In this document: one piece after another, positions 12,139 through 62,396 of the stretch
Position numbering within the stretch: the stretch's first letter is position 1
Layout: every line of letters starts with the position of its first letter
Origin: Acidimicrobiales bacterium
GTDB taxonomy: Bacteria > Actinomycetota > Acidimicrobiia > Acidimicrobiales > SHLQ01
DNA length: 64,000 bases
NCBI GenBank assembly: GCA_020629635.1
Contig: JAHDCX010000004.1
Span: 1 to 64,000 of the forward strand
Direction: 5' to 3'
Made by a program: the position numbers and the translations under genes
The notes under the pieces: generated by a model
Seen by the model: only the letters and a program-made list of their open reading frames with translations
The model's database searches: none
Told to the model about the DNA's origin: nothing

Positions 12139-12492
12139 ATGGTTGCAACTCCACGAAAGGGGCCCCGCTTCGGCGGCAGCGCCTCGCATCAGAAGGCCAT
12201 GATGGCCAACCTCGTCGCGTCGCTCATCGCCGCGGAGGCGATCGAGACGACCGAAGCCAAGGCGAAGGCCATGCGCCCAATCGCCGAGAAGATGATCACC
12301 AAGGCCAAGAAGGGCGGGGTGCACAACCACCGCCAGGTCGTGAAGTTCCTTCGTGACCGCGAGATGGCCACGAAACTCTTCGACGAGATCGGTCCCCGCT
12401 ACGAGGACCGTCCGGGTGGCTACACCCGGATCATGAAGCTCGGACCGCGTCCGGGCGACAACGCGCCGATGGCGCGCATCGAACTCGTCTGA
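12139..12492 (+). CDS. rplQ: 50S ribosomal protein L17
   Basis: L17 lies by the exit tunnel. The protein has 117 residues, with [27 protein letters not shown] split over two helices and the C-terminal [20 protein letters not shown] region. It closes the alpha operon. truA begins 14 bases later, and an inverted repeat in the truA 5' end may separate the two transcriptionally. Confidence 0.98.
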
Positions 12493-12506: not shown

Positions 12507-13274
12507 ATGACGCCGACCAAACGTGTGAAAGCCACTGTCGCGTATGACGGCAGTGGCTTTCACGGTTTTGCCGTGAACCGTGACGTCCGGACGGTGGCTG
12601 GCGAAATTGAGGCTGCGTTGGCGACGATCTGTCAGGAGCCGGTCGTGATCACGTGTGCGGGGCGGACCGACAAGGGCGTGCACGGTCGTGGGCAGGTGAT
12701 CAGCTTCGACGTGCCGACCGATCGGGTAACCGATCCGGGACGCCTCGAACGGTCGATCAACCGGCTGTGCCGGCCACGGATCGTGCTGCGAGACACAACC
12801 TTCGTCGAGCACGACTTCGACGCCCGGTTCTCGGCAACGTGGCGCCGCTACGGCTATCGCGTGCTCAACCGTGACGATGCCGACCCGCTCCTGCACGGTC
12901 GGGTGTGGCACGTGCGCGAGCCCCTCGATGTCGCGGCCATGAACGCAGCAATGCACCACGTGCTCGGCGAGCACGACTTCACCTCGTTCGGGCGGGTCCC
13001 CAAGGTGGACGAGGGTCAGACCCCTCCGTCGATGGTGCGCGAGGTCCTTGAGGCCGAATGGTCGGTCGTCGACGAGCTCACGGTGTTCGAGGTGCGGGCG
13101 ACCTCGTTCGTGCACCAGATGGTGCGGTCTCTTGTGGGCACGTCGGTCGACGTCGGCCTCGGCCGAGTCGACCCGACCACGATCCCGGCGATCCTCGCCG
13201 CACGCAACCGCCATGCCGCCGGCCGAGTGGCGCCACCTGAGGGTCTGACCCTCTGGGACGTCGGTTACGACTGA
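12507..13274 (+). CDS. truA: tRNA pseudouridine(38-40) synthase TruA
   Basis: TruA isomerises uridines 38-40 in tRNA anticodon arms. The 255-residue protein has the start-proximal VAYDGSGFHGFA motif and the catalytic Asp55 in AGRTDKGVHG. VRATSFVHQMVRSLVG lies near the C-terminus. rplQ-truA adjacency is common. The 3' end overlaps the convergent yczE-like gene by ten bases. The coding sequence contains a 13-bp inverted repeat at codons 7-19 and two GGGTCWGACCC palindromes. Confidence 0.96.
   Translation: MTPTKRVKATVAYDGSGFHGFAVNRDVRTVAGEIEAALATICQEPVVITCAGRTDKGVHGRGQVISFDVPTDRVTDPGRLERSINRLCRPRIVLRDTTFVEHDFDARFSATWRRYGYRVLNRDDADPLLHGRVWHVREPLDVAAMNAAMHHVLGEHDFTSFGRVPKVDEGQTPPSMVREVLEAEWSVVDELTVFEVRATSFVHQMVRSLVGTSVDVGLGRVDPTTIPAILAARNRHAAGRVAPPEGLTLWDVGYD
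12525..12563 (+). repeat. Perfect 13-bp inverted repeat inside truA 5' end
   Basis: GTGAAAGCCACTG (12525-12537) and CAGTGGCTTTCAC (12551-12563) are exact reverse complements around a 13-base loop. The RNA is followed by GGUUUUG. The repeat lies 33 bases after the rplQ stop and within conserved truA codons. It could act as an attenuator at the end of the alpha operon, or control TruA translation. Confidence 0.75.
13013..13253. repeat. Two GGGTCWGACCC palindromes within truA
   Basis: GGGTCAGACCC occupies 13013-13023. GAGGGTC-T-GACCCTC occupies 13239-13253. Both share the core of the palindrome at 9093-9107. They lie inside coding sequence, so they may be fixed by codon choice rather than being a binding site or a mobile element. 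Confidence 0.45.
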
Positions 13275-13873
13275 GCTGCGTCGATCATCATCGGCGGCAA
13301 GAACACCTGGACGAGGGGGCCGATCAGGAAGGCGAAGGCGATCGTGCCGATGCCGAAGCTCCCTCCGAGGGCGATGCCCGCAAGAAGCACGGCGACCTCG
13401 ATGCCGGTTCGGACGACTCGGATCGAGGGGCCTCGGGCCGCGAGGCCGGTCATCAACCCATCGCGGGGGCCAGGGCCGAGCCCCGCGCCGATGTACATGC
13501 CCGTACCGATGCCGTTGAGCACGATGCCGCCGATGAGCAGGGCCCAACGAGTGACTGAGCCCTGGGCATTCTCGAAGAACGGGAAGGCGAGCTCGAACAC
13601 GACGCCGACGAGGATGGCATTGGCGATCGTGCCAATCCCTGGACGTTCCTTGATCGGGATCCAGAGGAGCAGGACGACGAGACTCGTCAGGATGATCACC
13701 AGACCGAGCGAGAGACCGATCGACAGGCTCACCCCCTGGTGAAAGACGTCCCAGGGAGCGAGTCCGAGATCGGCGCCGACGACCATCGCGAGACTGACAC
13801 CGAAGAGCGCCAGCCCGACGAGGAGCTGTGTCAGACGTCGGGCTTGTGGTGTCGGAAGGAGAACTGGGTTCAC
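13265..13873 (-). CDS. YczE/YitT-family membrane protein
   Basis: This 202-residue integral membrane protein has five to six hydrophobic segments. The motif LGLAPWDVFHQG (about residues 36-47) and GLGPGPRDGLMTG (131-143) are characteristic of the YczE/BCR family, whose molecular function is not established. The GTG start at 13873 overlaps the stop of the upstream hydrolase (GTGA), so the two form an operon. The 3' end overlaps truA by ten bases. Confidence 0.85.
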   Translation of the reverse strand: MNPVLLPTPQARRLTQLLVGLALFGVSLAMVVGADLGLAPWDVFHQGVSLSIGLSLGLVIILTSLVVLLLWIPIKERPGIGTIANAILVGVVFELAFPFFENAQGSVTRWALLIGGIVLNGIGTGMYIGAGLGPGPRDGLMTGLAARGPSIRVVRTGIEVAVLLAGIALGGSFGIGTIAFAFLIGPLVQVFLPPMMIDAAQS

Positions 13874-14574
13874 CCGTCCTCGGCCAGCCGGTCGGCGATC
13901 ACGGTCCACACGTCGGGGTCGATCCCCATCCCGACGTGCGTGCTCTCGACTTCGATGTTCTCGACGTGTGGGCTGAAGTCGTCCACGCACGCCTTCCAGT
14001 CGACGACGGCGTCGTTCTTGCTCCACATCGCCGTGATCGGGCGACGGATCGGGATCAGGTTCCGTTCGTCGACGGCGTCGGCGATCTCGTCGACCCGGTC
14101 CTTGCCGTAGGTCCGAGCGCCGACGGTGTAGCGAGGACCACCGATGATCGGAGTCCCATAGGTGATGACACGGGTGACGGCATCCGGCTCGTCCCGGGCA
14201 ACTTCCCGGGCGAACACACCCCCGAGGCTCCACCCGATGAGCGCGACCGGCCCTCCCGTCGCCTCCGCGTGACGAAGCACCTGTTCGGTCACCCTCGGCA
14301 ACATGAGCTCGACCTCGCCGCCATTCAGGCCGAGTCCCCAGCCGCGGCACCGATGCCCGAGCATCCGGAGCTTGGATCGGACGGGGAGCATGAATGCGTC
14401 GTTCGTGCCGTAGCCAGGAATCGTCATCACGTTCTGGTGACCGCGCGGCAGCCGGAGGAGGCTCGGTGACCGCCACACGAGCCGCGGCAGCTCCCGGACA
14501 GCGCCCGCCTCACGAAGCAGCCGATTGCCTGCAGGTGCGGCCAGTTTCGATCGGTCGATGGTCGGGGTGGTCAC
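13870..14574 (-). CDS. Alpha/beta hydrolase
   Basis: This is a 234-residue serine hydrolase of the alpha/beta fold. The nucleophile elbow is GWSLGG (Ser116); Asp188 (WSKNDAVVDW) and His213 (STHVGMG) complete the likely triad. The substrate is unknown. No signal peptide is seen. The GTG at 14574 is chosen because TAGCGT (14582-14587) ends exactly 7 bases upstream, the pattern of a leaderless transcript. A GTG three codons earlier is possible. It is coupled to the YczE-like gene. Confidence 0.82.
   Translation of the reverse strand: MTTPTIDRSKLAAPAGNRLLREAGAVRELPRLVWRSPSLLRLPRGHQNVMTIPGYGTNDAFMLPVRSKLRMLGHRCRGWGLGLNGGEVELMLPRVTEQVLRHAEATGGPVALIGWSLGGVFAREVARDEPDAVTRVITYGTPIIGGPRYTVGARTYGKDRVDEIADAVDERNLIPIRRPITAMWSKNDAVVDWKACVDDFSPHVENIEVESTHVGMGIDPDVWTVIADRLAEDG

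Positions 14575-59727: not shown

Positions 59728-62396
<2,669 letters not shown>

Follow-up and report, generated by a model that had tools for sequence, protein, structure and literature searches.

A hairpin located within the first codons of truA, just past the alpha operon's final ribosomal-protein gene, is under selection in a genus of Acidimicrobiales, and we consider it a putative alpha-operon terminator or attenuator that is dual-coded with the TruA motif YDGSGFHGF, a reading to which we give a probability of roughly 0.55. The window, by which we mean the whole 64,000-nt stretch of DNA analyzed, has the ORF order ...-rpsM-rpsK-rpsD-rpoA-rplQ-truA, in which the gene names (rpsM to truA) are presumptive and follow from the standard order and the proteins. 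The coordinates of the features are given in Table 1. The last 10 bp of truA (13265-13274) are shared with the end of a convergent minus-strand ORF (13265-14476).

Table 1. Genes and hairpin elements at the rplQ-truA junction of the window.
Feature	Position	Strand	Source or remark
rplQ, last alpha-operon ribosomal-protein gene	12139..12492	+	ORF list; tblastn query
truA, 255 aa, ATG start (possible later start GTG 12525)	12507..13274	+	ORF list
Hairpin 5' arm GTGAAAGCCACTG	12525..12537	+	
Nominal 13-nt loop TCGCGTATGACGG	12538..12550	+	
Hairpin 3' arm CAGTGGCTTTCAC, coding for part of the conserved motif YDGSGFHGF	12551..12563	+	
GGTTTTGC with U run 12566-12569	12564..12571	+	kept in 9/9 genus genes

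The hairpin (12525-12563) covers truA codons 7-19 and has, as the preliminary description claimed, 13 perfect pairs and a nominal 13-nt loop; the GGUUUUG said to follow it is also present (GGTTTTGCC behind the 3' arm, with TTTT at 12566-12569). Three inner pairs, U12538-G12550 (wobble), C12539-G12549 and G12540-C12548, which are invariant in the seven rows of the genus alignment, extend the stem to 16 pairs and leave an effective loop of 7 nt (CGTATGA, 12541-12547). For the 39-nt hairpin, the folding energy is -27.7 kcal/mol (z -7.6); in a 141-nt context, z was -3.44 with one of 200 shuffles as good, and the U run paired with a stretch downstream. Three properties of intrinsic terminators are found together here: a stable stem-loop (no shuffle out of 200 folded as well as the 39-nt hairpin), a U run directly behind the stem (GGUUUUGC, four U in 8 nt), and closeness to the upstream stop codon, since the stem follows the rplQ stop (12492) after a spacer of 32 nt. 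The hairpin occurs once in the 4.45-Mb genome, and this single site appears on both strands because it is a palindrome. For comparison, the U-run criterion quoted in PMC8269248 is at least three U in 8 nt, and for Streptomyces terminators PMC12207403 describes stems that are long and stable, 3-4 U within 10 nt, and ends lying at medians of 66-76 nt past the coding sequence. In the window, the 10 nt after the stem contain four U and the stem base is 71 nt behind rplQ, a layout resembling that of those terminators.

The genus sample comprised 11 genomes including the own genome, nine of which had a truA match (truA relatives were present in 75 of 78 genomes). The hairpin was found in all nine genus truA genes, with that of L008 starting inside the 5' arm at the contig start, so that the lack of conserved pairing in relatives, named in the preliminary description as a refuting result, was not observed. 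These genes share 56-98% pairwise protein identity, and across the 13 codons Ala9-Phe21, which contain hairpin and U run, the same codon was used in 401 of 445 same-residue comparisons (0.90) versus 2745/5476 (0.50) in the rest of truA, where the best 13-codon stretch reached 0.785; within the clade L003-L008, the values were 187/195 in the hairpin codons versus 1372/2604 elsewhere. Both Phe codons, one in the 3' arm and one in the U run, are TTT in 9/9 genes, compared with 11/90 Phe codons (12%) elsewhere. Codons retained in the hairpin include ones that are rare in the remaining gene (ACT, AGT, TTT), the codons GCC, GTC, GGC, TTT, GGT and TTT are invariant, and third positions in the loop are variable (GCG/GCT/GCA, TAT/TAC). 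Moreover, the U run GGTTTTGC is conserved as strongly as the stem. No such effect was seen at these codons in the sister genus g4 (25/60 identical versus 500/1032 in the rest of the gene). The L008 contig begins at GCCACTG in the hairpin and the L004 contig a few bases ahead of the 5' arm; assemblies may break at this point because of about 44 nt that are shared between species, or because of the palindrome itself.

Perfect stems of at least 13 pairs with a loop of 3-20 nt numbered two in the 64 kb (the hairpin and one at 60732) and zero in each of six order-1 Markov simulations of the window. When the truA codons were re-drawn, 13 pairs were reached in 0 of 20,000 trials with the gene's own usage and in 1 of 20,000 with uniform synonymous choice. 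Chance and codon bias were therefore rejected as the origin of the hairpin, and we regard that explanation as exceedingly improbable in view of the codon conservation in 9/9 genus genes, the fold shuffles, the codon re-draws and the comparison with g4; the original suspicion that such a stem is unlikely by chance was borne out by these results and by the simulations.

Pairing was scored in seven distinct complete genus rows, leaving out L004, whose letters equal those of L003, and L008, which is cut by the contig start, and 110 of 112 cells (98.2%) were standard pairs. In L009, a U-A pair has become C-G by a synonymous change in one arm and a Ser-to-Gly replacement in the other. At the base of the stem, the pair is A-U, G-C or G-U, and pairing is lost in two rows; the remaining departures are three sense-strand G-U cells, and one U-G pair is invariant. 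Since these pairs would read A-C on the antisense strand, the pairing pattern favours an RNA of the sense strand. Within the genus, covariation was modest (25 of 500 shuffles reached the score) because 12 of the 16 pairs never vary. The same departures bear on the idea of a CIRCE-like DNA operator for a repressor, for which the perfect palindrome in the window might speak: the G-T departures and the invariant T-G position break the symmetry of the DNA and keep the sense-strand RNA pairing, and each genus genome holds one zero-mismatch site, always in truA. Neither strict symmetry nor sites at several promoters were thus found, and we consider an operator very improbable. The window's only other perfect stem of this size, a 13-bp inverted repeat at 60732-60764 (GGATTGGCACTCG-N7-CGAGTGCCAATCC), lies directly ahead of the groEL ORF (ATG 60780) and, judging from the consensus, looks like a CIRCE/HrcA operator.

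A mobile palindrome was not supported, as the scan of 19 family genomes yielded nine zero-mismatch sites, one per genus genome with truA; eight further sites had three mismatches each, and a reversed control pattern gave three sites. A related pattern had no exact match in viral contigs. No Rfam family scored above its gathering threshold at the hairpin, the only such match in the window being a tRNA elsewhere, and the sub-threshold matches at the hairpin were weak (best mir-210, E 0.026). The 16-pair stem with its 7-nt loop could also be taken for an imitation of a tRNA anticodon stem-loop, by which TruA would bind its own message and exert autogenous control. TruA, however, targets positions 38-40, and the matching positions of the loop and closing pairs carry no U (A or C, then C, G); position 33 is U in L007 and L008 only, and most loops outside the genus measure 3-5 nt. 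Substrate mimicry was not supported by the target positions, and a TruA-binding site of this kind appears improbable.

The search was extended to the class, in which rplQ was matched in 192 of 198 genomes by tblastn and 60 of the 192 were fetched, mostly one per genus. In a rank test, we determined the share of same-locus 110-nt stretches with an equal or better uninterrupted stem, both behind rplQ and at the truA start (-40 to +70 nt from the position matching the ATG of the window), and called a stem strong when it ranked in the top 5% of its own locus. Dropped before counting were L022 (which shares its genome with L118), L039 and L040 (both almost identical to L038), L164 (implausible gap of -458), loci without an rplQ or truA match on one strand and, for the non-genus tests, the nine genus loci; L138, which resembles L038, was retained. 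A strong stem was present behind rplQ in 46 of 116 non-genus loci, and by the same test none was found there in the other 70; in a smaller set, the proportion was 24/63 versus 0-10% behind ten other genes. Among the 28 loci with truA more than 150 nt away, 13 had a stem behind rplQ and 2 at truA (McNemar p 0.007), and stems at the truA start were found in 23/69 near versus 2/28 far loci (Fisher p 0.009), both p values being too small because related loci are not independent. With a gap of 100-150 nt (19 loci), 8 stems lay behind rplQ and 2 at truA, and with a gap of 100 nt or less (69 loci) the numbers were 25 and 23, with 22 loci in common; these 23 stems are placed at the truA start by the position matching the ATG of the window, and not all of them need lie inside the gene. 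All four loci of g4 have a stem starting 28-35 nt behind the rplQ stop, followed by NN-TTTTG in two, CGCCGTTTTTG in one and CTCGGTTA in one, to be compared with 32 nt and GG-TTTTG in the window. Stems are thus associated with the end of rplQ, and the distribution suggests that the stem mainly belongs to the rplQ end and falls inside truA where truA abuts rplQ. By the rank test, no top-5% stem was found behind truA in the nine genus loci.

A clean rule by which the stem position tracks the rplQ stop was not obtained, since the regression of stem position on the rplQ-truA gap gave a mixed slope of -0.33 (0 for truA-tied, -1 for rplQ-tied), and the standard deviation was 14.9 when positions were taken from truA and 19.3 when they were taken from rplQ. 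Conversely, stems behind rplQ in loci with distant truA weaken, and do not remove, the reading of a hairpin tied solely to truA. Outside the genus, at least three U in the next 8 nt were present behind 7 of 25 stems near truA versus 14 of 22 other stems. The many families with U-run-free stems behind rplQ would fit a processing or protection hairpin, in which the alpha-operon message, after cleavage or Rho-dependent termination farther downstream, is trimmed as far as a stem guarding its 3' end, and according to PMC8269248 some Streptomyces ends that combine a strong stem with few U may be trimmed Rho-dependent ends; the U run kept in all nine genus genes argues against this explanation, which we judge rather unlikely.

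A further alternative is an element of truA translation or stability, that is, a stem near the start that lowers initiation or protects the 5' end and does not terminate transcription. In its favour, codon-preserving shuffles of the truA start gave z < -3 for 14 of 65 non-genus genes, compared with 20 of 420 internal sets (no value was obtained for four of the nine genus loci, in which the shuffled stretch started ahead of the reading frame), and stems at one and the same truA offset occur in eight other families, with the truA frame open through the stem and arms that differ yet stay paired. Two-sided changes were seen in 6 of 12 pairs and the covariation score was reached by 0 of 500 shuffles in these eight families, which is illustrative since the rows were picked for having a stem. 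Hairpins retained where truA has moved off rplQ point the same way. In four congeners (L102, L104, L105, L106), the rplQ-truA gap is 68-123 nt and the hairpin is intact, lying 86-141 nt behind rplQ (gap plus 18); an additional top-5% stem is located 5 nt behind rplQ in L102 and L105, a weaker one follows rplQ in L106, and none was found there in L104 by the rank test. L118, from another family, retained the truA stem at a gap of 218. Against a truA element stand the equally conserved U run GGTTTTGC, which such an element would not need, and the rarity of truA stems (2/28) where truA lies far from rplQ in non-genus loci; we therefore hold it to be possible, with a clearly minor share of the probability.

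The sequence upstream of the truA ATG in the four separated congeners is TAGGATCT or TAGAATCT, flagged as -10-like in all of them, and in L102, L105 and L106 the same letters were also flagged as Shine-Dalgarno-like AGGA. In these three, a conserved stretch ending in TAGGATCT lies directly ahead of the ATG, and it may serve a leaderless truA message as its -10 element or act as a Shine-Dalgarno-like site (AGGA). Because the hairpin persists in the separated congeners, the position test gave a mixed result and stems at the truA start outside the genus are mostly without a U run, there is evidence against a pure operon-end role, and an added function of the hairpin in truA expression is plausible. 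Of the two functions first proposed, the switch on TruA translation thus gained weight from the four congeners and lost some from the 2/28 stems, and the attenuator gained from the strong stems that accompany the rplQ stop in families beyond the genus and from the terminator-like layout.

As a terminator or attenuator, the stem would fold once RNA polymerase has left rplQ, and part of the polymerases would be released at the U run, so that many messages would end past the ribosomal-protein genes and fewer would extend into truA. If a ribosome began to translate truA promptly, it would occlude the 5' arm and allow the polymerase to pass, making the element an attenuator and no absolute stop; a leaky or regulated terminator would fit, as the cell still has to produce TruA. 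For a ribosome halted at the rplQ stop, the stem would presumably be out of reach, given the usual footprint sizes. A more speculative extension, which we put forward as doubtful, is that the hairpin acts as a ribosome-gated brake written in conserved-motif codons: in the congeners, a message starting at or near the ATG, where a truA promoter is possible, would open with its own terminator stem and be extended only if caught at once by a ribosome.

As far as the accessible parts of PMC12207403 and PMC8269248 describe them, intrinsic (Rho-independent) terminators of GC-rich Actinomycetota share with the truA hairpin a long stable stem, few U and a position about 70 nt past the coding sequence; in contrast to them, the truA stem and U run, known here from sequence, lie wholly within the conserved coding start of the next gene. 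The predicted early termination in or near the start of a reading frame is similar to E. coli attenuators and ORF-internal 3' ends in the accessible portion of PMC7815308, whereas the truA hairpin is placed where a ribosomal-protein operon meets an enzyme gene. Ribosomal-protein leaders, among which an L17 (rplQ) leader is listed for Actino- and Proteobacteria in the part of PMC7247131 available, are likewise RNA structures tied to ribosomal-protein operons, but leaders stand ahead of the genes under their control, and the truA stem comes after rplQ. No published hairpin or terminator inside truA behind rplQ was found in a literature search covering few subscription journals and otherwise accessible text, which is weak evidence of novelty.

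One stretch of DNA thus appears to stand under two codes, that of a TruA motif and that of an RNA hairpin with a U run, which suggests a route by which a compact operon could dose its ribosomal proteins and the following enzyme gene differently. The natural variants, with truA abutting, truA moved away or the hairpin absent, are suited to the study of U-poor terminators in GC-rich bacteria. In addition, the doubly coded stretch is a warning that synonymous sites at the start of a gene behind an operon end need not be neutral.
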